In this document: positions 6,429-42,432 of the stretch, piece after piece | Layout: every line of letters starts with the position of its first letter | How positions within the stretch are numbered: the first letter of the stretch is position 1 | Assembly (NCBI RefSeq): GCF_000204055.1 | Contig: NW_006768841.1 | Coordinates: forward strand, 96,824-160,823 | Direction of reading: 5' to 3' | From: Melampsora larici-populina 98AG31 | Lineage: Eukaryota > Basidiomycota > Pucciniomycetes > Pucciniales > Melampsoraceae | Length of the DNA: 64,000 nucleotides | Notes under the pieces: model-generated | Databases searched by the model: none | Told to the model about the DNA's origin: nothing | The model's input: the letters and a program-made list of their open reading frames with translations, nothing else | Position numbers and translations under genes: made by a program

Positions 6429-9294
6429 ATGCCTGCCGCTATTCCAATGACTGTGCAGCATTGCCTGAAGATATGTGAACATCTGACGCAGCTAGAGTTC
6501 TCGCCAAAAGAATTCATGGTTACCTTTTTCTCTTCGCCTCATCCGGATTTGGTCTTCCGTAGACGCCTGATGAAAGGAGGGCTAGGTGCCAAATCGACAC
6601 GGTCCATCGTGAAGAATCTAGGGAAATTGGCGTCCTCGTGTACCAAAGGCCAATCCGACTGGGAAAAACTTATTTTGGAGGAGGTGAGTGACCTCCTCTA
6701 AACTTCGAAGCTTCGTCACTAAGCGTGCCATGGTTTCCAGGCCTCCGAAATCGTGAATCGTCAGGAACCACCACGAGGGCATTATCCGGCTGGAGCGTAT
6801 GTCAGCTCCAATCGTGTGACCCCAGATTTCTTTAGCAAGAGCGACGAAAGGCACCGCAAAGAACAAATCACGACCGGAATGAGCTTTCTTCATTCACTCA
6901 TCCACCAAAAGCTCACGGTTGGTCTGAAGAAACCAGACACTGATCATATTGAAGATGATGAATCGAACCTTCCCGCGGAAAGAGGTCCTGAGGCTTCTAG
7001 CGAATCTTTGATGGCTCGTGACGGAAGCGATCCAATCCTGGATACTGTGGATGATGCTGCCATTATGTCGTTGGAGAACCTGGTTTTTCTAAACCCGACT
7101 CCGGCGGAACAAGCTGCCCACAAACTGGACACGGTGAGCAAATCATAACCCTATACAGAGCCTGGCAGGCTATGCTGAATCAAACACAGACCTCATTGAT
7201 AATTGTGCGTTTCGTTCCGCGGGTAGATCCCCATCATGATTTGTGCTATGATTGCAAATGCATGTAACCGCCGGTGTAATGCAATCCCGCTCGCGAATGG
7301 ATTGATGACGTTGGCCGGCGGAGTTTCATGTCGCGTAAACGAGTGGCTCCAAGCTTTCAGTATGACGATTTCCAGGCCTTCGATCCTCAAGGCGTTAGAT
7401 CACCTTAGCTGTTTACAAGAAAAACGTATGATGGAACTGTTTAAAGTAAATCATAAATTAATGCCGCTCTTGTGCTATGACAACATCGACATCCAATTGC
7501 GAATTCATAACACCCGGATTGAAACCTCATCTCGCCTCTTCCATGGCACATGGGGTTTCTACTTCGTGATCCGGTCGTGTTTGCAGGAGAGCTGTACCCA
7601 AGAAGCCGCGAGCCTTGCTGGCTTTTTGGACTAGATGGCCAAGGCAAATCGTAAAGGGGTCGGTCTCTCATTGTTCACTCCGACTCCGTCGGAGAGCTGC
7701 CACTGGAATAAGGTCATCAAGTGTCAGCTTGCCAAAGTATTGAAAGAATACGTGAAACACATACCAGGGGCTCCTGAGCGCGCGCAACTGGCACCTATCA
7801 AGACGAAACCACCGCCAATAGATCCGATCCAAATGCACCGTCCAAACATTCATTTCTTACGAATGATGGACGCTCCTGATTCATCCGCAGAGGGGGTCTC
7901 TTGTGTGATCGACGAAGTCCTAACACAGATAGGGGTAAATCCCAAAAAATATGCTGAAGAGCTTTTGGTTGCCGCTGGTGACGTCGGGTCAAACCAACTC
8001 CTCGAAAGTCTCAGGGTCAAGCGATTCCCTCCCGTCAATGGAATGGAAGGATTAGAGTGGGTCCTTTCGGTTTTCGGAGGGGCCCACACCACTTGGAACT
8101 TTTCCAAAGCAATATGGTCTCTCCATTGGGGGAATGCCGACAACGGCAATGATACCGGCACATGGAGGTCTTCATTTGCCATTGGGGGCGAATATAAAAA
8201 ACCAGAGGCGGCGCAAAGTTTCAATGCCATCATGCGTTCCATGCAGATGGTCCATAAGGCAAACCTACTCTTTATTATCACGTCAGTTTATTCCCGCGTT
8301 ATGCTTAACGATGTTGGGACTTATCTCATTGGCCCAGGCCACGGCAGCCAGGTCATCAAGTCTAACAAACAGCTCGACTTGACCAAAACCTCCGACGTCG
8401 AAAACCTTTTGGACCTAGTTTGGAGTGACTATTTTGACGTTTCGGCTTTAGAACATGCCAGGACTGAGTGTGATCACACTCGATACAACTTGTTGTTAAG
8501 ATTGCGTGATTTCGCGACCGTAGTTGAAGGACACGACGCCAGTCGCGCCGGAGACATTGGGCGAGTGATCGCGATGTGGAAGCGATGGGCCATAATGGCC
8601 CAAGGACTTCAAGGCCTATCGCACTACGCCAGGCACATCCCGCGCATGGTTTTACTTTTGGAGGAGGACTTACCTCCAAGCCTGTCACATGCTATAAAAC
8701 ATTCACTTCTCCTGCCCTTCAACGATAGAGATGCCCATTGGTTGGCCTTAGACGAGTTCCTAGAGGTGAACATTTTCTGGTTAAAGCAGGTCTTTGGCAA
8801 CACGGTGAGTGACTTGCGCTTTGGTTCTATTGCTTTTCGAATATGCACGTGACTTCGAACCGCTGTGTGATCAGGGACATGGTACCGACATTGAGGCGCT
8901 CATGTATCGTATTTCCAATAACATCCCATTGGTAAGCACATAATGATTATATATTTCAAAAGGGGTTACATTAACTTGATCACGACTACAGTTAAGGAAG
9001 CTAATGAAGTTGCTCAAAGCCTTGTCGGGTCACAAGATCATTTACCAAAATAACCTCAACATCATTACGGATTCTTCGATAGAGTCTTTCTTGACGTATG
9101 CCAACAAGCATTTGTTGGGAGATCACACCTCCCGTCCTCCTGTCCCAGTCACTAACGTGTGGCGCACAGGCCTTCGCGCTATGATCAAGTTGATCAGAGC
9201 TGACACAATCGCGGGTCGATCATCCCGGTTTCAATGGGGGTTGGCGAATGTGATGTCGTCGTTTGAACAGGAGGAGTGCCCTGATGAGGTGTGA
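6429..9294 (+). pseudogene. DUF6589-type protein, copy 1, with one in-frame stop
   Basis: Probable exons are 6429-6683, 6741-7133, 7227-8281, about 8349-8804, 8875-8931 and 8992-9294. The reading is interrupted by TAG at 7632-7634, after which the same frame continues for 400 codons. It shares order and motifs with copy 2 (37570-40661): an NRRCN block, YDNIDIQ, RLFHGTWGF, a GD.G segment, GGAHTTWNFSKAIW, HWGNADNGND, then LRLRDFATVVEG and a long helical C-terminus. DUF6589 has no assigned biochemical role that I know of. The acidic DN and GD motifs are compatible with an RNase H-type nuclease fold, but that is inference. It converges on the helicase with a 62-bp gap between stop codons. Confidence 0.8.
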
Positions 9295-9356
9295 AATTCT
9301 GCATTGTAACCAAAGGGAAAATGATCAAATCATGAGTGTCATTGTCATAAGCCAAA

Positions 9357-11911
9357 TCAACTCACTGCCGATGTTGATGACCTTCGTTTCGGATCCACTT
9401 CGGCTGGGTGACCTACGCCGATTCGCTTTGAGCCATGACTGGTCGCTCGCACATTGGTGGCACCAACAGCCGCGCGAGCCGCAGCCTGCAGTTCCAGTCG
9501 CCGCTGACGTTCTGCCGTCGCCGCATCCTTCGTCGCTTTTTTCTGAGCTTCCAACCTTTCTTTCTGCTGTAACTTTTGAAGCTTTTCCTCCATCTTTGCC
9601 TGTCTAATTCGGTCCTGCTCGGCCTTGCGAGTTTTTTTTGCCGGGGCTTTCGCGGCGTCCGCGCGTGTTTTGGCAAGGCTAGCTCCCTCAGTTGACTGGG
9701 CCGCTTTGCCCGGTCCGTTTGGTCGGTTGGAAGTGTGTCTTCGCTGAACGGCTTCATCCATAGCAGAAGATGTGTCCAGCTCGAGTTGCCACTTCAGGAA
9801 CGTGTCGAACAAGCACGCAAATTGGCCCGGGGTCGATTCACTAGCTAAGACCAATCCCAAATCGCATGGTTTAGAGAACAGGTCGATGTTCTTGGCTAAG
9901 TCCCAGGCGAGGTCTCTTCCGAAGTAGTCCTCCGGTCCTAAGTCCCAGGGCTTGGGGAATTTACTCGTGAAGAACTCTGTAAACGCTAGATCCAAACGGG
10001 TAACGAGGCTCTCCAGGACATTGGATTTCAGTATTGGGTCATCAGGCCCACAGAGGAATGCCACAGGTGTCGATTCGACCGTAGGTGCGAGGGGAGCGTC
10101 AGGCAGGGAGGCTAGCAGATCCATAAGTCCTTCCTCACTCATCTTCAGTGCGTCATCGAAGTTTTCGGTGGTCAACGCAGGTTGCGCTAGCCATAGAGCT
10201 TCACCTTCTGCTGGTCGACAATTAGAGCAATCGCATTCTGGCATTCCAGCCACGCGCTGACGCTGGACTTCTTCTAGCACCACAATTTCTTGAGCATTGA
10301 GGGGTATGTATCTGTGACTATGTAAGATAGTCAGTTTACCAAGCCATGATCAATTGTAAATTATACTCAAGGTAGGGTTGAGTACGAACCTAAGATCCAC
10401 CGCCAGTGCGACACGCAGGCAGACTGCAGTGATTGCTAAGGCGTCCATGCGGTCATCGTCTGACATGATTGTTGGAGTCACAAAATCTTTGATACTGTTC
10501 TTCCCGTTGGTTCGGTGATGTTCAACTAGCATCACTCCCAAACCTCGACGCCCATCCCTTCCGCAACGGCCGGACATCTGGATTAAGTTGCATGGATCTT
10601 GTCGTCCATATATAAACACCCGTTGTACGCGGTGCCAGTTCTGCCCTAGGCCTAAAGCCAAGGTGCAGCAAATCGTGGAGAGTTCCCCATTGACGAAACT
10701 TTTCACGGCCTGTTCTTTCGCCATCGGACCCGTTGTCGCATGGTACCAGCGTGCGAAATCCGAATGGCCATTCGCTGTTTCGTTGGAAAGCCCTCGAGAA
10801 GTGTTGATCATTTGGAGAAATTCCAAAGTAGCATTTTGTGTACCAGAATACAATAGAGTGGGAGGAATCGCGGAGTTGGAAACTATTGAGTGATGGGTGA
10901 ATATCCCGCGCAAGCAATTCTTGAGAGGACATTTAAAAGATCGTCGTAGCAGTCGGATTTCCGGACGAGTGAGCTCGCCTCGAGTGAAACAAACATCTCG
11001 CATGTCCAGTTTGAGGTTGCGTATGATAGCCTGGACTTGTTGAGGTGGGCAAGTTGCAGTCATCAACAACAGTGGAAACCGGTCCGCCGAGAGGAATCTT
11101 CGAGCTAGGTCACCGTATGAAGGCCGGAAAGCTCCACCGTCCTGCACACGCACATGGCTTGCCAATCGTTTGGCTTCGCCAGTCTCAACAATGCCCCAAC
11201 TGTACACCATATGTGCCTCATCTACGACGTTGAGGACCAGCCGCGCCTGGAAACGCGGATCGGTCCACATTTTGTCAAACACTTTGCTTGTCAGTGCAAC
11301 CTCGGGGCTCTGCATTAAATCAATAACAATGACTCAGTACAACTCACGAGGTCAGTCATTCAGAGCTCAAGCACTTACCACATATCCAAATGCAAACTTT
11401 CCCTGCAGTATCGCGTCACAGTTCCCCTGCGTGCAGTTTGGGCCGTCCAGGTTGATCGCGGTAAGCCCAACAGCGGTTTTTTTGCTCACCTGTGAAAGGG
11501 TGAAACTGGTGTCAGGGCCATCCAACTACAATTTCCATGTGAAATTTAACTTGCCTGATCATCACCCAGGGATAGTAATGGGTTAATGCAGAGTACGACT
11601 GGTGAATATTTCGGGTCGTGTGCAAGGTAGAACATCTCTGGTACGTGGCTTTTGCCAAATCCAGTACCCGCAATTAAGAAACTTGTGCATCCATTGATTA
11701 GATCCACTATGGCTTTGTTCTGAGGGGGCCGAGCGCGGTATCCAAAGTGCGACTCAAAGTGTTCGTCCACAGCTAGAACATGGGTGGCTTCCGTGGTGTT
11801 AATGTATACGTCTCGCAGTTTTGGTTTGGCCGTGAGCGAGATGAGTCGACGTTCTTCCTGAGACTGGCTCATGAGAGCTGCGTTAGTCGCGGAATGACTC
11901 CTGCAAAGCAT
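9357..11911 (-). CDS. RecQ-like DEAH helicase, copy 1, apparently intact
   Basis: Four exons fit: 11911-11555, 11489-11379, 11309-10390, 10311-9357, about 780 residues. Superfamily-2 helicase motifs are in order: RPPQNKAI (Q-like), Walker A AGTGFGKS, DEAH in NVVDEAHMVYSWG, MTATCPP, LALGLGQNW, and QMSGRCGRDGR (motif VI). A cysteine motif CDCSNC follows the helicase core; the tail is Lys/Ala-rich coiled coil. Intron 1 uses a GC donor (CAG/gcaagt). RecQ-type enzymes unwind DNA 3' to 5'; here the adjoining convergent DUF6589 gene and the second copy in a transposon imply an element-encoded helicase rather than a host repair enzyme. Start at 11911 is the first ATG in frame; another Met lies nearby. 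Confidence 0.88.
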
Positions 11912-13285: not shown

Positions 13286-14645
13286 TACGGTGGCCCCGAG
13301 GCAAAATCGCCGCCACCCCTTTGTGTGATTTGCGATTTGTGATCTTTACTCGCATCATTCAAAAATGTCCCAGATACTTTCCTCACTGCTTCTCACTCAT
13401 CCATTCAAAACCCCAGAAATCAATTCTATCTTGATGTAGACCACAACATACAAATCAAACCTTGCAAGTGCATCAGACGTGCGATTGGCAATTTTTCAAG
13501 ACGAGGACATCCTAGACAAGCGATTGTCATCAATCCAAGGAAGCGACATCAATGATGAACTGGGAACTTCTATGGTATCTACTTATCATGAAATGGGACA
13601 TAGGAGAGGCCTCTGAGGGCTTTGTGAAGCTAAGGAGAGGTGAGAATTGGTCGCCATCTCATCTCAATCAAATTTTGAAGATTCTACTTCGATCGTGTCG
13701 CTGCATACACTTGTGCCATCAAGGTACGCGTCTATCAGGGAGATTATCACCTCAAGAAACTTGATCGGCGACTCGATTTGGGGTAAGATCAATATTGAAC
13801 ATTAACTGCTTAGTGATCACCCATAGCAAAATGTAGGTTACTTCTGTCGATTCCAAAGTTCAGCCAACCGCATCAAAACATGGACCCAAAGCTTTACACC
13901 AGTGTTACATCAAATGCTGGGGCAATCTTCATTGTTCAAGTCTTTAGGAGAACACAGTTGAGTAGGACTTCTCCTCAAACTTATCAACTGTTGCTCTCAA
14001 TCACCATGCTCACTCACTGAATTTCATATCATTGACTAATTTTCTCAAATTAGGATAAAGCCTTCCTCTTTGTTATTTAATCTCATTGTACTATATACTA
14101 AATAGATCCAAACTCTTGATAGATATTTTTGATACTTTGATCAGGATCACATTAACTGCTTTTGATTCACCCATGAAAAATAGCCAACCTATCTGATTTT
14201 GATTCTAATAACGGTTTTACTAGAGTCTCATGTGGTTTATTTACCATGATCCAGTTGTAAAACAGCAGAAGTCGACATATTCTTCAGATGAAGATGGTCA
14301 TTTGATGCAGTTTCTTGAAGAAAAAATATCAAGTTGTCAGTCTCCAATTGATACAAAATGATAAGAGGCTGTGATTTATGGGTTCAACTCAATTTTGAGA
14401 TTCAAACTTATTGTGTGTAATTTGAATTTTTGAGAGAAAAAAAAACGCGTTTAATCCGCTTTTGGATATCTGGGTCAGCAATCTATGACAGAGTGAAGGT
14501 TAAGAAAGTGGTATATAGTCAACACTGAGACTGAAGAATGCGCTGGGGACGTTTTTGAATGATGCAAGTAAAGATCACAAATCACAAAACGCAAAACGCA
14601 AATCACAGAAAGGGGTGGCGGTGATTTTGCCTCAGGGCCACCATA
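13286..14645. mobile_element. Non-autonomous DNA transposon (1360 bp) related to the helicase/DUF6589 element
   Basis: Long imperfect inverted repeats occupy 13286-13379 and 14543-14645. They start TACGGTGGCCCCGAGG and TATGGTGGCCCTGAGG. The element is flanked on both sides by GTGTTA (13280-13285 and 14646-14651), a perfect 6-bp target duplication. The first 10 bases and the following GAGG match the ends of the 7.2-kb helicase element at 34466-41642, which also makes a 6-bp duplication. The interior is AT-rich and has no convincing gene. Mobilisation by the larger element is inferred. Confidence 0.85.
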
Positions 14646-32673: not shown

Positions 32674-34042
32674 ATGCCGCCCAAGGGTCCAAGAAACCTT
32701 ATCAATTTTGCCGGTCGTCTAAGATGTAGGAGCCGATTCGAGACATCAAAATTTGATAATGCCATGTCAACTTCAGTCCTTGGCCTTAATCCGAGCTTTC
32801 CTAGATCGCGTTGGCTTTCCCTTCCCTCGACATCTATAAACGGATCGGATCACAAGAATACTGGCCGTAGACAAGCTGTGCGAATCATGGAGGTTTCTCC
32901 TAGGGACGGCCTTCAGAATGAACCCAACATTCTACCAATACCAGTAAAAGCTGAACTGATCAGAAAACTCGTAGATCTAGGCCTACGGCACATCGAGGTC
33001 GGAAGTTTCGTGTCACCTAAGTGGGTTCGTGTCCCAGAATTCGAATCCTTCCAGAACAATTCAAACACTCAACAATGGAACCTTTCGCTAGGTGCCCCAA
33101 ATGGCTTCTACTGCCGAAATCATCTGCCACCCAGACATTATATCGTCCAAGTTAGGATCAAACCCCACCTTTAGTGTATTGATGCCCAACCGTAAGGGAC
33201 TAGATGGATTCAAAGCTGCCAATTTCGAGGAATCACCTCATCGTGAACCTGTCGTAGACGAGATCGCACTTTTTGCCTCGGCTACCGAAGGCTTCAGTCA
33301 GGCCAACCTCAACTCGTCAGTTTCAGATTCCATTGAGAAAATGCGACCAGTGGCCGAAGAAGCCCAAAGGCTGGGTCTGACCATCCGAGGTTACGTGAGT
33401 TGTGTGTTTGGATGTCCATTCGAAGGAAAAGTGGACTTTAAGCAAGTTGCATCAGTATCACAAGCGCTCTTTGATCTCGGCTGTTACGAAGTGGCAATCT
33501 CAGACACCATCGGAGTAGCGGTCCCGTCGCAGGTCACCGACTGTCTTGACCATATGATAAAATCCGGCATTGACCCTGGTCGTCTGGGGATCCACTGTCA
33601 CGACACCTTTGGGACCAGTCTAGCAAACATCCTAACAGCCGTGAGTTTGGGCGTCAAGACTGTGGACTCGAGCATTGGAGGTATAGGCGGTTGTCCATAC
33701 TCTCCAGGTGCCACTGGCAGTTGAGTATATTCATCATCAGCAACTGTGATATCAAGATGTTGCAGACTTCAGCTGATGTTTCTGACACGATGCTCAATTC
33801 CAGACGTTGCAACTGAAGACGTGGTATATGCACTCGAGTCTTCTGGATACTCTACTGGCATCCTGGATGGTCCGATCTCAGGCCACACAGTCTTAGGGAA
33901 CGACCCGGCATTGTTGAAGAAATTGGAACCCTTGGCTGATGCAGGAAATTGGATCAATTCCAACCTGGGTCGTTCAAATTCAAGCCGTGTGGGAAGAGCC
34001 GTCTTGGCAAGAAAATCCCGTCGAGAAAAACAGGCATCATAG
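32674..34042 (+). CDS. HMGCL: Hydroxymethylglutaryl-CoA lyase
   Basis: Three exons: 32674-33024, 33092-33719, 33804-34042, about 405 residues. The basic N-terminus suggests a mitochondrial targeting peptide. Catalytic and metal-binding features are present: RDGLQNE (Arg-Asp), [12 protein letters not shown] across intron 1, GIHCHDTFG (the two metal-binding His), and [15 protein letters not shown] across intron 2, carrying the catalytic Cys and the metal-binding Asn. It splits HMG-CoA into acetyl-CoA and acetoacetate in the last step of leucine degradation. An upstream in-frame Met at 32572 would add a hydrophobic stretch; 32674 was chosen because it gives a targeting-like N-terminus. The gene is intact. 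Confidence 0.93.
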
Positions 34043-34590
34043 CCTCCCTTGTTTTTTCGTTGGTCGATTATTGATCCATGTTTTGTTTTCTTTTCACTTA
34101 TCTGACATCTCTTATCGCATTTCATTATATGTTTGAGTATGTAGTACGGCCTTCATGTAATTCCTACACGTGTTTTGTCAACTATTTGCATTTTTTGTAA
34201 TTTTATGCTGTGTGTGACTCCCACAAGTTGACATGGATCGTTGTACCCTACCTGTGAGCAACACGCAAACCCCGCCGCTGAAAACTGGGGCAGCGCGGCG
34301 GAGGCGTGGCGGTCCCACCGCACCCTCAGTGTGAAGGGTCTTCACTGGGGTGAAACCGCTGCGCAGCACGGTTTTCACTGCGGTCCGACCTCGCCGCTGC
34401 CCCATGGAGGGCACCCCAGCAGGAACGCAGGGTCGCAGTTACCCATACTGTACATAGGTCATTAGTACGGTGGCCGAGGGGCGCCACATGCGCCATAACC
34501 TCAAAATACAAAAATCGCACTTGAAACTCACCCTGAAAGCCCCGCCAAACGTATCCCGACCCCAGTCCGTGGCGCCGCTAACTTAACTAA

Positions 34591-34636
34591 GTCCCTCCTC
34601 CTCGCAGGCGTCCTCCGGAGCCTGCGGAGGAGGGAC
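34591..34636. repeat. Subterminal hairpin, left end of helicase element
   Basis: GTCCCTCCTC...GAGGAGGGAC, a 46-bp imperfect palindrome with inner arms CGCAGGC/GCCTGCG, about 125 bp from the tip. It is matched at 41061-41106. Confidence 0.85.
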
Positions 34637-34933
34637 TTACGACTTATCGAGTTGTTTCAGCCTGAGTAGATTCCCAAAATCCAGATTTTCAAACATTTGA
34701 AACTGGACCTACATTATTACCTTCATCATTGCTTTGTTGAAAAATCTGAACAGACCAAAAAATTCTCGCACATCCTGTACATAGTCTCATCAACATGATC
34801 ACATTGGTTAATATGATTCTTTTCCTTCAATCATCAGATTGAAATCTGTAACAATTTTTGAAGTCGATTGTACCACTGCGGAGGCGGTTGAATCCGAAAG
34901 ATGCCCAAAAGGTTTTGGACGATGGCAAAAGAG

Positions 34934-35035
34934 AGAGAACCATGTCAAAAGAGAGAGGCGATCAAGGAGTAAGAGGGAGGGAGAGAGAGCGTCGTTTTGA
35001 TTACGAGAGAGAGAGAGACAGACTCGTTTGTCTGT
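34934..35035. repeat. GA-rich low-complexity tract upstream of helicase copy 2
   Basis: Runs of GAGAGAGA occur twice within 100 bp just upstream of the helicase start. It could be promoter-associated, but nothing proves it. Confidence 0.5.
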
Positions 35036-35172
35036 GAGACACGGTGCAAAAGTTTCAAGGGAGGGATTGGTCCTGGCTCAAGCTTTTGAAAAGCATACGA
35101 AAAATCAAGCTTTCAGCCCGGTTCTCAAGTTACCCAACCGATCAACTCACGGCGTGTCGACGTTGCTTTTCA

Positions 35173-37707
35173 ATGGTCACCATCGATTCGCCTGCTTTCG
35201 AGCCTGAAGGAAGAAGAGATACTCTTCGTAGCTCAGCTAGAAACAATCTGACACCCGCGAAACATGTACAAAATAATCGACGACCTACTGAAGTCCTCGC
35301 TTATTTGCCTTCGGATGCAGTTCCTAAGCAAACTCATGCAAAGGTTGTTCTTCCAGACTGGGTCCTGGCCTTGACCGAGGAAGAATTGAGGAAGCTAATT
35401 GAGGACAATCATTTGAAAAGATATAAATGCAAAGCTAAAGAGCTACAAGTAGAAGCAGTTGTGGCTTTGGTCGCGGGGCGTGATACATTTATACTGGCGG
35501 GCACTGGCTATGGAAAGACTCGAGTTGCAGAGATGTTTCTGGATTTGTTTGCAATAGAGTCAAAGGCCACGCTTATTGTGTTAAATCCGCTGGATGCTTT
35601 GGGTGACAATCAGGTAAGTGATACATATTCCATAATCATCATCGGAGCCCATCATGTTACTATACTTTACTTATTAATGTAATGTTTTGATCTAAGGTTA
35701 CTGAGAAAAAGATATGGAATATCACCGCTGTGAATTGAAAAAGGACAGCTNNNNNNNNNNNNNNNNNNNNNNNNNNNNNNNNNNNNNNNNNNNNNNNNNN
35801 NNNNNNNNNNNNNNNNNNNNNNNNNNNNNNNNNNNNNNNNNNNNNNNNNNNNNNNNNNNNNNNNNNNNNNNNNNNNNNNNNNNNNNNNNNNNNNNNNNNN
35901 NNNNNNNNNNNNNNNNNNNNNNNNNNNNNNNNNNNNNNNNNNNNNNNNNNNNNNNNNNNNNNNNNNNNNNNNNNNNNNNNNNNNNNNNNNNNNNNNNNNN
36001 NNNNNNNNNNNNNNNNNNNNNNNNNNNNNNNNNNNNNNNNNNNNNNNNNNNNNNNNNNNNNNNNNNNNNNNNNNNNNNNNNNNNNNNNNNNNNNNNNNNN
36101 NNNNNNNNNNNNNNNNNNNNNNNNNNNNNNNNNNNNNNNNNNNNNNNNNNNNNNNNNNNNNNNNNNNNNNNNNNNNNNNNNNNNNNNNNNNNNNNNNNNN
36201 NNNNNNNNNNNNNNNNNNNNNNNNNNNGTCGATCGAATATCAGAATCATTCGAATTCAAATGGACCACGGGTTAAGGAGTGCATTAGATTTAAAAGCGCT
36301 TTATGCTAAAAAGGAAGCAGTGCCCGATTGTGATCTAGTGAAGGCACTAATCTACTCAGGTTCAAGGAATGCTACCTTTGAGGTGATGAAAGTTATCAAC
36401 AAAGCCCGAGGCACACCAAAAGGCGAGCACGATCCAGACAGCTCTCTGATCCGAAGGTACCATTCATGTATCGGAAATAAAGAGAAAGAACGTGGAATTT
36501 TGGGTTATACAAAAGACGAATTCCCTCTGATTTCATGTACAAATGCTCTTGGCCTTGGTCAAGATTGGCCTTCGGTGATGGAGGTGATTGTCATGGGTCG
36601 GACAGCCATTCCAGAGCTGACTCAACTGTTTGGCAGATGTGGACGCGGAAGAAGTGCAGGGTTAGCCATCCTATTTGTGGAAAGAATTCGGTCTGGAGGT
36701 GAAAATGATGTTGAGAAGGTTGATGATAAAAAACAAATGACTGACGATCAGCTCATGGATATGTATGCTTTGACACCAATCTGCCTACGAGTGGCGCTAT
36801 CACTGGCAAACACGTAAGTCGTCATTTGTTGGAACAATCACTCGGCGGGTTTCTCAGACTGACTTTGATATCTAGGATTGGAACAATCCCCCGTCGCGTA
36901 GATGATCCCCGAGTGATTGCCGAAAAGGAACGGGAAGCAGACGCCGGATTCCCAAAATGCACTTGCTCGAATTGTGACCCAGAAGCTGCTGAGATGCTAG
37001 TTTGTAACTTACCTCGATTGACAAAGGCGAATTATCAGATGGCTATGGAGGATGTATTCAAAGTTGATGGGTTTTTGAAACCCATCGATATCGAGGCCGA
37101 GAAAGTTGCAGCTCAGGCGGGTAATGCACCAGCATTACCTAAAAAAACCTTGTCAAGAAAAAGAAATGGTCCTTTGGATACAGCTTTGAAGGAACTCGCT
37201 GATGAATTGGTTTCCATTTATAAGTTGCATTACATCAAGATTTTTGGAGATGATGATTATTGTGAAAGTGAAGATTATTTTGGAATTGGTGAGGCAAGAA
37301 CAATAGTCAATTCACTTGATAACATTAAGCAATCACAGGACATCGAGCAGGCTATGGGTGGGGATATAATTGAAGGAGGTGTCAAGCTTGTTTTTGAATA
37401 CATCGAGGAATGGAGGAAACAAGACATTGCATTACAATATTCGCAGAAACAAGCAAAGCTGTTAGAGATGAAAAGAAAAGCTGATGACAAGCGTGTGTTA
37501 GCAGATGTCACAAACGTCAAACAAATTCCGACTGGTCCTGCAGCAGCAACCAAGAAAAAGAGAAGGTCTTCAGCTCAGGTCAAAGCCAATAAAGAAGCTG
37601 CCATCCTTAAAGCTGATTTCAATCGGCGGTGTTTGAAATGGATGAAAGAGGATAATGTTCCAGCTGATAAACTTGATGAAAGAGAGGAGGCTTACCAAAA
37701 CGAGTGA
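35173..37707 (+). CDS. RecQ-like helicase, copy 2, interrupted by an assembly gap
   Basis: Exon 35173-35613 holds a QVEAVVALVAGRDTFILAG block running into Walker A AGTGYGKT. Exon 2 starts at 35697 and meets TGA at 35736-35738; one missing T there would restore the reading seen in copy 1, and the 477-N gap starts 13 bp later, so sequence error is as likely as mutation. The DEAH motif falls in the gap. After it, IYSGSRNATFEV, NALGLGQDW and QLFGRCGRGR are visible, then intron 36814-36875 and an exon to 37707 with the CTCSNC motif and a Lys-rich tail. It is the element's own helicase, colinear with copy 1 at 9357-11911. Its 3' end overlaps the convergent DUF6589 reading frame. Confidence 0.8.
35751..36227. 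other. Assembly gap (477 N)
   Basis: Run of N inside the helicase gene; it hides the DEAH box region. Confidence 1.
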
Positions 37708-40661
37708 GTTGTACTCTTTGCTGAACCAGTCCACAAAATCTTCATCAATAGTTCCAAATCCATGTCGCAGATCAGATTCATTAATTTCTTTGCTTTCAAC
37801 CGGTTGATTTTCATCTTGTTCTGGACTGTAGTTTGAAGCAACAGGCCAGTGGAAACGCTCAAGTTGATTTTTGCGATACTCGGCTTTAAGCTTCTCAACC
37901 CCAAGGCAATGGATATCTCCCAGAGGTTTCCCAGGTATGGTTGAGTTTGGACTAGATTGGTGGATCCTTTCGCTTCGGGCCATCTTTAGAAATCGAATCA
38001 TGGAAGCTGGTGTGATTTTATTTTGACGGGATTGTCGCACATTGTTCAGACCTGCTCTACCCTTCATTGTATTAACCAAATGTGAAAGCTGCATCCAATT
38101 GATTTCAGCTATGAATGGTGATGACACCATGATTAAGCCCGATGAGTAACATACCAGACCCACTGTAAGAGAGTATGTCTCTTTTAATCTCTGAATGTCT
38201 GTTCCGGGTCCCTAATTCAGAACAAAGCGATGAGTAGTCAGTGTGCAAAAGAAATAGATGTGATAAAACTTACGGCATGATTATAGAAGTATTTCAGCCA
38301 GTAGTTTTTTATCTCAAGATGGAAATCTTTAGCAACAAAGTGGCCATGTCGACCAGTCGGCGATATTAAGAGCGAGTGGAGGATAACATGGGAAAGATTC
38401 TTGGGAAGGACTTTGGTAAGCAGCCGAATCAGTCGAGGGAGATATCGAGAGTAATGAGTCAAGCCGTTGATTCCTTGGATTTTCACACTCCAAGACTTCC
38501 ACATCAGGAGAAGTCGACCAATATCACCATCCGACATTGCACGATTGGCTTCAACCACGGTGGCGAAATCCCGAAGTCGTAGTACCAGCTGGAGTTTCTT
38601 GCTATCTCCATTTTGGCGCGCCAGACGTGTGGCTCGTCCCGAAAAGTAAGCTAAATATACTTTATCAACGGCTTCCTCAAAGAGCTCAACAGTCATATCA
38701 ACGAGATTGTGAACTGTATCAACAGGCAGATCTAGTTCATCACTTGAACGATGTACATCATAACCTTGTCAGTAAACATATTTATTTGGTGGTAAGAAGC
38801 CTCGGGTGAACTCACAATATGCAGCTTGCAATGGTGGCCTCATGTATCTGTTCAATCCATCTGATCATCGAAGTGAAATCTTTCTTAGCAGTTGGTTTGA
38901 GTTTACTTCCGCCGAGCTCAACTGCAGTTCGCCACGCTCCTAGATCGTTCTTGTTGTCCGGATTGCCCCAGTGATGTAGTAAAATGGCTTGTCCAATGTT
39001 CCACAAAGTGTGGCCCGCACCAGGAATCATTATCAGATGTGATAGACTTTCTTCGGCGAATTTTGCAGGAGTTCTTTGGCTTTGTAATCCGTGAAAATTA
39101 AGACAGGTCCCAAGATCCCCTTCCAAGATTTGCAGTCGACTCGAAAAATCCTCAGGGGAGAGGCCGGTCTGTTTACTGATCTCGTCATAAAGGGAAGCGA
39201 TGCCTTCAGAACCGTTGTCTGATGAATCCATCAGTTTGAGCATGTTGATATCAGGTATTTCGGGCTTGATCTGGTCAATGGCGCTAAGGTTCAATATTGA
39301 CAGTTTCTTGAACTTCTTGGGACTCTTCATATATCGTAGGAGGACCTGAGCAATTTGATTCTTCAGAGTGAGAGTCCATCGAATTTGTTCATCTTGTGTA
39401 GGAAGTAAATCTCCTGAGTTTACAGGCTTTTCACAATCGGATTTGACAAAACCCTGAAAAGCTGGCACTGTACATTCTTCTGAATTTACAAAAGTGAGTA
39501 AATCGGGTTTCAGATAATGAACATAACCCCAAGTACCATGGAAAATTTTGCTAGTTGCATCCAATCGCCTAGTGTGTACCCGCTCCATCATGTCCAGATT
39601 GTCAATACATATAAGGAAACCGAGAGTCCCAGCAGCTTTGATTTTCTTCTTGATAGACTTTGCGTTATCCTTGGCAAGTACTAAAAGACCACGTAGAGCT
39701 GATTTCCGACTTGCACTGAGTCCAATCTGATACAAATACTGGTTTACTCGTTCCGAAACGCCACAGGCAAGCAAAGTGATTGTATTTTGAACTTGAAGGG
39801 AATTGCATCGGCGATTAGATCCAAAGGCAAGCATTTGAACAATTGTGAGAGCCATCTGCAGATGATATAAAGGGTCAGTGTGGCATTCTTACCGGGCACT
39901 TTCAGAAAATCCTTACCGCTTTCAATCGGGTCTTTGTGTTTTCTGCTTTGTTATTTGATTTGTGATAAACGTCATCTTCAGGCAACTTAGTTTTCGAAGA
40001 AAAGTTGTTGTGCAAGGCCAAGCCGGTGTCGGAATCAATGTTGAAGTCCTCTTCGGAACCTGAGCTATCGGAAGTCATTCCAACTCCTGAATGCTTATCA
40101 ACACCAAGTTTAAAAGATATTAATTCATGGATAAAGTTCATGCTTTTGATGATAGTTGCCTCTCTTTTAACATCGGTTTCGCGGTCAAAGAAAGTTGTAT
40201 CGAGTTTGTTGATGTTGATGTAAAGACTACCAGTTGGGGGAGATTGTGCTGCTACAATCACCTTGGCCTGTGGAAGGGTAAAATATTATAATTGAGCTCA
40301 CTTCACTTGTTAGATATCTGTATCAAATACTCAAGTGTACCTTTTTCAAGACCCAATCATTCCATTTCTGTCGACATTGAGGCTTTTCATTAACTAGGTT
40401 GTCAATCGCATCAAGAACTTCTTCGGTGGTTTTCCATCCCTTCTTCACGGAACCCCACTGTTTCTTACGCCTGACAATCAATTGGTCAGAGGATCGTAGG
40501 TAAGCCAGGAGAAATTTCTTGGTGTTGGTTTTGTGTGTTGACATATACCGACAAATCCTTTCGACAAGATCGGGTGTTCCTTCAGGGGTTGGTGCTGATA
40601 AACCTTCCAGTGTAGGATCCAGGTGAAAGCTAGTGTCTGATCCTTTGGAACTGCTGTTCAT
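37570..40661 (-). CDS. DUF6589-type protein, copy 2, no internal stop seen
   Basis: Exons: 40661-40341, 40267-39917, 39855-38816, about 38735-38274, 38211-38155, and 38108 to a stop at 37570. The N-terminal helical block is ERICRYMSTHKTNTKKFLLAY...KWNDWVLKK. An acidic linker follows, then SNRRCNSLQ, CIDNLDMMER, KIFHGTWGYVHYL, EGDLGT, GAGHTLWNIGQAIL, HHWGNPDNKNDLGAWR, LRLRDFATVVEA and a helical C-terminus. It is the probable catalytic gene of the 7.2-kb element, since the helicase alone cannot cut DNA; this is inference. The last ~137 bp overlap the helicase 3' end on the other strand, and a GTAAGC donor near 37700 means the true end may differ. Confidence 0.75.
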
Positions 40662-41060
40662 TTCGAATGTTGTCTGAGTACAACTGAGGAATAAGGTGTG
40701 AGGAATTCAAAGAAAAGGAAATTGTGTCCGAAATAACAGAAATAATGTATGGGTCAGCAGAGAGAGTCCAAAACTTGATTTAACATATATACAGATGCAC
40801 ATGTACTGTTCTCGCAGCAAAAAAATAAAAAAATAAAAATAAAATCACGATTTTAATGATTTTTGAGGTCCTTTGGACTTTTTGATTTGAAACCTCTTGA
40901 GAGGAATCTGAAGAGGCCAAAAGATGGGCAAGACTTTGTTCTATAGTCTGCCCGGATGAAAGTGAGGAGTCATTTTGTGTGACACAGTGAAAATGAGGAT
41001 TGGAGATGGCCCCTGCCAAATCCAAATCTACTCAGGCTGAAACAACTCGATAAGTCGTAA

Positions 41061-41106
41061 GTCCCTCCTCCGCAGGCTCCGAAGGACGCCTGCGAGGAGG
41101 AGGGAC
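41061..41106. repeat. Subterminal hairpin, right end of helicase element
   Basis: Mirror copy of 34591-34636 with one or two substitutions. Confidence 0.85.
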
Positions 41107-41127
41107 TTAGTTAAGTTAGGTGGCGCC

Positions 41128-41531
41128 GGGGTCATCACTCCAAACTCCAGGAGTGCAGATGACAGCCAGCCTCAGCCAGCTCGATGTAAATCGACTTCAT
41201 CATAGATCTGTCATGTCTGCCACCAATATTACTTTGAAATCACCGGGTCAGTACTTAAAGAAACATCATTGTCATGAATAAGACTGTTACAATGAATACA
41301 ACGGGCAATATCATGATGCTTTTAAAAATTTGATCGTTCCTTCGGATCAATCAAAGCTGCCGCAAATGTTGCTTTTAAACCATTGTACTTATAAACAACA
41401 ACTGGAGTAGTTCATGAGTGGACCAATTACAAGTCTTTTACAAGGCTCACTATAACAACTCCTTCACTGTGATCTGGAAAGTAAAAATTGGTGAAAGGAT
41501 TTAAGAGGATCAAAGTAAGAGCTTCTGGTCC
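41128..41531. repeat. ~404-bp insertion inside the right terminal repeat
   Basis: The left terminal repeat runs straight through GGCGCC, while in the right one GGCGCC occurs on both sides of 404 unrelated bp (41122-41127 and 41532-41537). This could be a 6-bp duplication of a small inserted element. However, GGCGCC is its own reverse complement and the insert's ends (GGGGTC / GGTCC) are only weakly inverted. Confidence 0.55.
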
Positions 41532-41647
41532 GGCGCCACGGACTTGGGTCGGGATACGTTTGGCGGGGCTTTCAGGGTGAGTTTCATGTGTGATTTTTGT
41601 ATTTTGAGGTTATGGCGCATTTGGCGCTCCTCGGCCACCGTACATTA

Positions 41648-42132
41648 GGGCGTCTCAGGTTGAATTTTTTTGTTTTTCATTTCACACTTGGACCTTGTTT
41701 GTATTTTTCATTTACTAGCTCCAAGTGATCGAATCAAACAAAGGGTTTTGGCCTCTGAGCTTAGGAAACAAACAGCGGCCCGCGCTCTGCTTGGGCAGAG
41801 GTCCGAGAGAAATCGCCCGAAAAGAATCATTCTAAGCCCATGATCTTGAGACTTAACATAATTTATACACTAATGCAATTCATTCCCCTTGTTTTTCATA
41901 TCCTTCTGTCACTGTCTAATCCCATACTTATGTCCCACTCGGACCCATTTCAGCGTCAAAAACTCTCATGTCGAGGTGTGAGAAAGGGACCTGTGCTGAA
42001 ACAAACAGAACTCACAGATCCCTTCGCTCTGGTATTGAGAAGGTCAAGGCTCAGAATCGCTCTCGGATAACTGTTTGTTTCACACTTGGACCCTGTTCGA
42101 AAATCGCCAAAAAACCTCTACTTGAGACGCCC
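41648..42132. mobile_element. 485-bp MITE with TA target duplication
   Basis: Ends GGGCGTCTCA...TGAGACGCCC, with imperfect continuation for ~25 bp. It is flanked by TA on both sides (41646-41647, 42133-42134). Inside, the sequence TTTCACACTTGGACC is repeated directly near both ends. No coding capacity. Size, ends and TA suggest a mariner-type non-autonomous element. Confidence 0.8.
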
Positions 42133-42432
42133 TATTGATGTACCCCTTGATTCCAGATTCATCTTGATTTGCAGCCTCCAACACCCCATTCAACCACTTT
42201 CCTTCTTGATTGGGAAAGTAGTCATGATGGGCGAATGCAGGATGGGTGTAAGTGTTTTTTTTCTCATCTCATATTCATCAAATTTTCCTCGTTTTGTATT
42301 CATCGAAAGCATCTCACTTGTACTTGCCATCCTCAGTGCGAGTCACTTCGACTTCAATCCTTCCATCATCACTTACCTTTTTCATTTCAAGTCAATTTCT
42401 TTGTGGATTGTCCATCATCCTTCTATCATGCT

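Follow-up and report, generated by a model that had tools for sequence, protein, structure and literature searches.

DNA transposons that combine a DDE transposase with a helicase are already a known kind, with KolobokH and AcademH as described examples. Academ transposons carrying a helicase were reportedly found in animals and fungi by Kojima in 2020, and the target duplications of Academ are 3-4 bp long. KolobokH, a DDE transposon of fungi, carries a RecQ helicase, the related Kolobok-1_CCri of a red alga encodes its RecQ on the complementary strand, and Kolobok elements have a TTAA duplication, 5'-RR..YY-3' ends and a C/DxxH motif between the second D and the last E (PMC9587614; this and all other papers are cited for the passages available). 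In second-hand description, AcademH is a source of DEAD/Helicase_C helicases, occurs in Basidiomycota and is low-copy (PMC10799480). IS3EU elements of Pucciniales, including Melampsora larici-populina, show 6-bp duplications, TAYGG..CCRTA ends and terminal inverted repeats (TIRs) longer than 30 bp, and the published rust families carry TET/JBP genes (PMC12730594). Here we analyze 64,000 nucleotides of M. larici-populina 98AG31 (contig NW_006768841.1, positions 96,824 to 160,823; the whole of this stretch is called the window), where a RecQ-like helicase gene and a gene of the family PF20231/DUF6589 lie between long inverted repeats. An earlier note on this DNA had read the interval as one DNA transposon with ~207-bp terminal repeats and a 6-bp target duplication. 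According to our analysis the interval very probably holds two nested DNA transposons, an inner helicase/DUF6589 element with a DDE transposase, lying within an IS3EU-type miniature inverted-repeat transposable element (MITE) that had inserted earlier.

The two genes between the repeats are convergent, as the earlier note had it, with DEAD/Helicase_C matches in one and DUF6589 in the other, and a perfect CATTAG is indeed found on each flank (Table 1). Long inverted repeats are likewise present at both ends, but the single ~207-bp repeat turned out to be an artefact of the nesting: it is contiguous on the left and consists of two blocks on the right, with 411 bp (41120-41530) between them. The outer pair (34465-34577 against 41531-41643) measures 113 nt with 96% identity, and the inner pair (34578-34672 against 41025-41119) measures 95 nt with 99% identity. 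When the left 207 bp were searched against the genome (98.3 Mb in 243 contigs; 40 of 81 candidates scored), 53 matches were listed, 12 of which were the palindrome matching itself. Besides the window's own left end, each listed match fell within positions ~1-112 or ~104-207 of the query, and none ran across both. Helicase/DUF6589-type copies with the inner block at their ends are located on contigs C9, C41, C11 and C21, and more distant copies of this kind on C112, C86 and C36; the inner block is also found at the ends of short elements (C7 and C52), while the outer block is found at the ends of other short elements (C14, C57, C17 and C12, and partly preserved on C19). Because the two blocks occur apart elsewhere in the genome, the helicase/DUF6589 element is taken to span 34578-41119.

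The site before the insertion is preserved in related copies. Rejoined without the insert, the MITE is 626 bp long (34466-34577 plus 41129-41642), and its junction aligns without a gap to all four sibling MITEs compared (L061-L064, with L065 and L066 left out), one of which, L064, has two substitutions near the junction. At the uninterrupted site each of the four siblings has a single copy of the 9-mer GTGGCGCCG or a variant of it, and the 411 bp between the right-hand blocks are the remainder of the outer MITE. An empty-site alignment was the test that the earlier note had set for its insertion, and the four siblings show a different one, namely 34578-41119. It is clear that CATTAG belongs to the outer MITE, whereas the gene-bearing element, to which the 6-bp duplication had been assigned, is flanked by the 9-bp GTGGCGCCG.

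Table 1 Features of the nested elements, in positions of the window.
Feature	Position	Strand	Remark
CATTAG, left copy	34460..34465		6-bp target duplication of outer element
Outer IS3EU-type MITE, left 112-bp terminal repeat	34466..34577	+	Last 9 bases are the left inner duplication
GTGGCGCCG, left copy	34569..34577		9-bp target duplication of inner transposon
Helicase/DUF6589 transposon	34578..41119		6542 bp
Inner transposon, left 95-bp TIR	34578..34672	+	Begins CTAACTTAACTAAGT
Subterminal palindrome	34588..34639		TAAGTCCCTCCTCCTC ... GCGGAGGAGGGACTTA
RecQ-like helicase gene	35173..37707	+	Exons by eye from sequence
Run of 477 N	35751..36227		In helicase gene
DUF6589 (PF20231) gene	37570..40661	-	Candidate DDE transposase
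Inner transposon, right 95-bp TIR	41025..41119	-	
GTGGCGCCG, right copy	41120..41128		9-bp target duplication
Outer IS3EU-type MITE, rest	41129..41642		Terminal repeat 41531-41642
CATTAG, right copy	41643..41648		6-bp target duplication of outer element

For the inner element, target duplications were surveyed genome-wide. The 15-bp inner terminus with at most one mismatch occurs at 611 places, against 168 for the reversed control; 100 of these places were listed, all exact, and 27 neighbouring plus/minus pairs were found among them. The survey comprised 30 elements, namely the flanks of 20 of the 27 pairs together with ten earlier elements, which already included the C9 and C11 pairs; the five pairs left out were three tiny palindromes (52-75 bp), C6 and C20. 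Duplications of 9 bp were present in 24 of the 30 (22 exact and 2 at 8/9) and duplications of 8 bp in two (one 8/8 and one 7/8), while four elements had none; the mispaired-flank control gave 0 of 870. The 9-bp duplications have no fixed sequence, and the element ends are 5'-CT..AG-3'. The four elements without a duplication include those at C7 and C17:1340332, which are the only long terminus pairs containing both DUF6589 and a listed helicase match. A palindrome of the form ~AAGTMCCTC...GAGGGACTT is found at positions ~10-67 in all 12 ends examined, and in 11 of these, the exception being C39, it beats all 50 single-base shuffles, the ends being related and therefore not independent. When folded as single-stranded DNA, the window element has at its left end a z of -6.25 relative to dinucleotide shuffles. 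Many elements of 0.55-0.68 kb share the CTAACTTAACTAAGT ends and the 9-bp duplications, for instance C3:2794694-2795279 and C8:199740-200325, and are probably MITEs of the helicase/DUF6589 transposon. No DUF6589 match lies in two long elements (C18:1161838-1166602 and C19:300294-306912) that likewise have these ends and 9-bp duplications.

The minus-strand gene matches the DUF6589 family of Pfam in two exons (E 3e-33 and 4e-29). Its five exons (40341-40661, 39917-40267, 38816-39855, 38274-38742 and 37570-38211) splice to a product of 940 amino acids with no frame break, and the last exon includes a short segment that is missing in relatives and is probably one more intron. Predicted models of DUF6589 resemble RNase H-fold DDE transposases, the nearest being Hermes, P element and ISCth4, and the secondary structure of the models has a helical insertion ahead of the last acidic residue. 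For a second model, Foldseek alone gave no transposase among the first 50 matches, whereas VIA-align applied to Foldseek's candidates ranked transposases. H261 is present in all 54 aligned DUF6589 sequences with a nearly invariant G at -3 (GxxH). Of the 12 long terminus pairs (3.5-25 kb), nine enclose a DUF6589 match and three lack one. Judged from the predicted fold, DUF6589 is probably the RNase H-fold DDE transposase of the inner element; with these models and the 9 of 12 pairs, the claims of the earlier note that this is a DNA transposon and that DUF6589 is its best transposase candidate hold good. DUF6589 had no match to PDB sequences at E<=10, and a Pfam scan of eight DUF6589 proteins (E up to 0.5 or 1) gave DUF6589 alone above the cut-off, with no hAT, MULE or P domain among the listed matches and weak sub-cut-off matches unrelated to hAT. 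In viral contigs 47 pattern matches to DUF6589 were found and none was confirmed, and among the 50 matches listed from a viral fold library nothing exceeded a probability of 0.14. The term "DUF6589" occurs in no paper of the PMC literature searched, the papers mentioning PF20231 concern other subjects, judged by title, and none of the titles listed concerns the DUF6589/helicase gene pair. A family numerous in rusts and so far without an assigned function thus gains a testable one, that of a DDE transposase.

The plus-strand gene gave DEAD (E 4e-6) and Helicase_C (E 8e-5) matches, and its exons were placed at 35173-35613, 35697-36813 and 36876-37707. The window copy is broken by the N run, beside which there is a one-base length difference from two sister copies; the sister copy L053 on C11 has no N, and its helicase frames are open. 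With a profile built from 30 helicase relatives, 37 PDB sequences were hit at E<=1e-5, of which 34 are named WRN, RecQ, RecQ1/4/5 or BLM and three just "ATP-dependent DNA helicase". The sister exon of the window helicase alone gave weak matches with DEAD-box RNA helicases first. In three helicase proteins TIGR00614 reached at best E 6e-31 and 107.6 bits, which is below the curated cut-off of 219.8, and no RQC or HRDC domain was seen at E<=0.1 in six. By sequence comparison, the helicase core is RecQ-like. RecQ helicases are listed as an enriched effector family of rusts in the passages of PMC9370660, and some of these expanded helicases may be genes of helicase/DUF6589 transposons.

The pairing of the two genes is widespread in the genome. 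DUF6589 gave at least 104 matches (102 of 248 candidates scored), which were merged into 94 loci, and was absent from all 14 control genomes. The rust helicase query gave at least 142 matches (71 of 412 candidates scored), of which the 71 strongest correspond to 70 loci. A DUF6589 match was located within 10 kb of 43 of these 70 loci, in every case in convergent orientation, against a chance expectation of ~0.02 per locus, and 27 loci had no listed DUF6589. Hits were collected for DUF6589 (108 proteins) and for the helicase (146 proteins, 120 of them listed); all listed hits with an organism name are from rusts, Puccinia or Melampsora, and a few metagenome hits have no such name. Adjacent locus tags for the two genes were found in four cases (PGTG_17610/17611, MJO28_008683/008684, PSTG_01049/01050 and PCANC_07071/07072), which is a lower bound, one name being shown per cluster. 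In a search for long fused DUF6589-helicase proteins with a joined query of 1736 amino acids, 7991 candidates were scored and none of them reached E<=0.001, although a word-based search of this kind is weak evidence. The window contains a second convergent pair at 7635-11586, with DUF6589 on the plus and a RecQ-like helicase on the minus strand; it looks degraded, since no flanking terminal repeats were found.

The outer element, which is non-autonomous, fits the published IS3EU by its ends and its 6-bp duplication: the ends are TACGGTGGCC..GGCCACCGTA, of the form TAYGG..CCRTA, and the TIR is 112 bp long. Exact 6-bp duplications flank 8 of 10 outer-type elements (L065 and L066 left out), with one at 5/6 and one at 4/6, while in the mispaired-flank control 1 of 90 reached 5/6 or better. 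In contrast to published IS3EU, the copies found here are mostly short, and inspection of the open reading frames (ORFs) listed for the middle 2.0 kb of one 3.2-kb outer-type copy (C65) revealed no clear transposase. Another IS3EU-like element of 1.36 kb lies in the window at 13286-14645, with ends TACGGTGG..CCACCATA and a 6-bp duplication GTGTTA. Two further inner-type elements were found within IS3EU-type MITEs (C39:227482-236061 and C5:2454069-2459576; L111-L116), with the 9-bp duplications CATTTGGCG and TGCTCCATG, respectively, read by eye from the sequence; the C39 element contains DUF6589 and helicase matches, and the C5 element neither. Three such nestings against just 62 outer termini found genome-wide may point to a target or retention preference.

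We propose that the 626-bp IS3EU-type element would have inserted first, duplicating CATTAG, and that the 6542-bp transposon then would have inserted into this MITE, duplicating GTGGCGCCG. Going by the predicted fold, the ends and the duplications, DUF6589 would bind the 95-bp ends, excise the element and join it to the target with a 9-bp stagger. The RecQ-like helicase may act as an accessory that opens or resolves the palindromic ends or helps gap repair, its action at the end palindromes being a guess. The many short elements that agree with this transposon in termini and duplication length would presumably be moved by the same machinery.

As mentioned above, helicase-bearing DDE transposons are known, so the statement in the earlier note that no described superfamily corresponds to this element is not upheld. 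The inner element shares the RecQ helicase with KolobokH and differs in its 9-bp duplications without fixed sequence, its 5'-CT..AG-3' ends and its GxxH motif, and it has helicase and DUF6589 as separate, convergent genes. The 9-bp non-TTAA duplications rule out KolobokH membership, and the motif is not C/DxxH. DUF6589 shares a predicted RNase H core and a helical insertion with the hAT (Hermes), P element and ISCth4 transposases, but no sequence similarity to them was found, and its 9-bp duplication and RecQ helicase partner set it apart. The duplications of hAT are 8 bp, or 5-7 bp (PMC12730594), and hAT was rejected on the missing Pfam domain and on the 9-bp duplications, 8 bp being found in just two elements. 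IS256/MuDR duplications span 4-10 bp (PMC10045372), a range that includes 9 bp; the MULE transposase domain PF10551 (PMC8290104) is absent from the matches of the eight DUF6589 proteins, which speaks against MuDR/MULE. Helitrons have neither a TIR nor a target duplication (PMC4522978) and are ruled out by the 95-bp TIR and the 9-bp duplication.

The chances are evenly balanced that the inner transposon belongs to AcademH, with DUF6589 as its transposase under another name, which would be a question of naming and is compatible with the nested reading. The 3-4 bp of Academ do not fit the 9-bp duplications. The inner element has DEAD/Helicase_C domains as AcademH does, by second-hand description only, and AcademH is present in Basidiomycota; on the other hand it is low-copy (PMC10799480), against the at least 104 DUF6589 matches here. 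The passages of PMC10799480, PMC12210899, PMC10045372, PMC8290104 and PMC9970103 do not include the AcademH transposase sequence or duplication length. We only tentatively put forward, as the lesser chance, that the DUF6589/RecQ elements form a separate eukaryotic DDE superfamily outside AcademH, Kolobok, MuDR, hAT and P. Its hallmarks would be DUF6589 as the transposase, a RecQ-like helicase in convergent orientation, 9-bp duplications, and ends of the CTAACTTAACTAAGT type that contain a subterminal palindrome; if so, the palindromic ends would be the helicase substrate. It is very unlikely that the helicase is the essential, Helitron-like enzyme and DUF6589 a passenger: the helicase does lie beside DUF6589 at 43 loci and without a listed one at 27, but the TIRs, together with 9-bp duplications of fixed length, point to a staggered insertion involving both ends, which is not the Helitron pattern (PMC4522978), DUF6589 has a predicted DDE fold, and no HUH nuclease or Helitron domain is among the listed Pfam matches. 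A single transposon at 34466-41642 with ~207-bp ends, a 6-bp duplication and a right end split by a later 411-bp insertion would account for the contiguous blocks on the left and the perfect CATTAG flanks, but is hardly tenable, since the outer and inner repeats are found apart, each with its own duplication length, and the uninterrupted site in four sibling MITEs, of which the 411 bp are the rest, refutes it.

Nesting can thus mimic a new transposon superfamily. With the boundaries, termini and duplication length given here, these elements and the short ones probably derived from them can be annotated correctly. A third short inverted-repeat element (...TAGGGCGTCTCA) seems to enclose the outer MITE (34448-34465 plus 41649-42137), and the nest may be three elements deep. 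An ORF at 33092-34042, which may be the last part of an HMG-CoA lyase-like gene, stops ~0.4 kb upstream of the nest.

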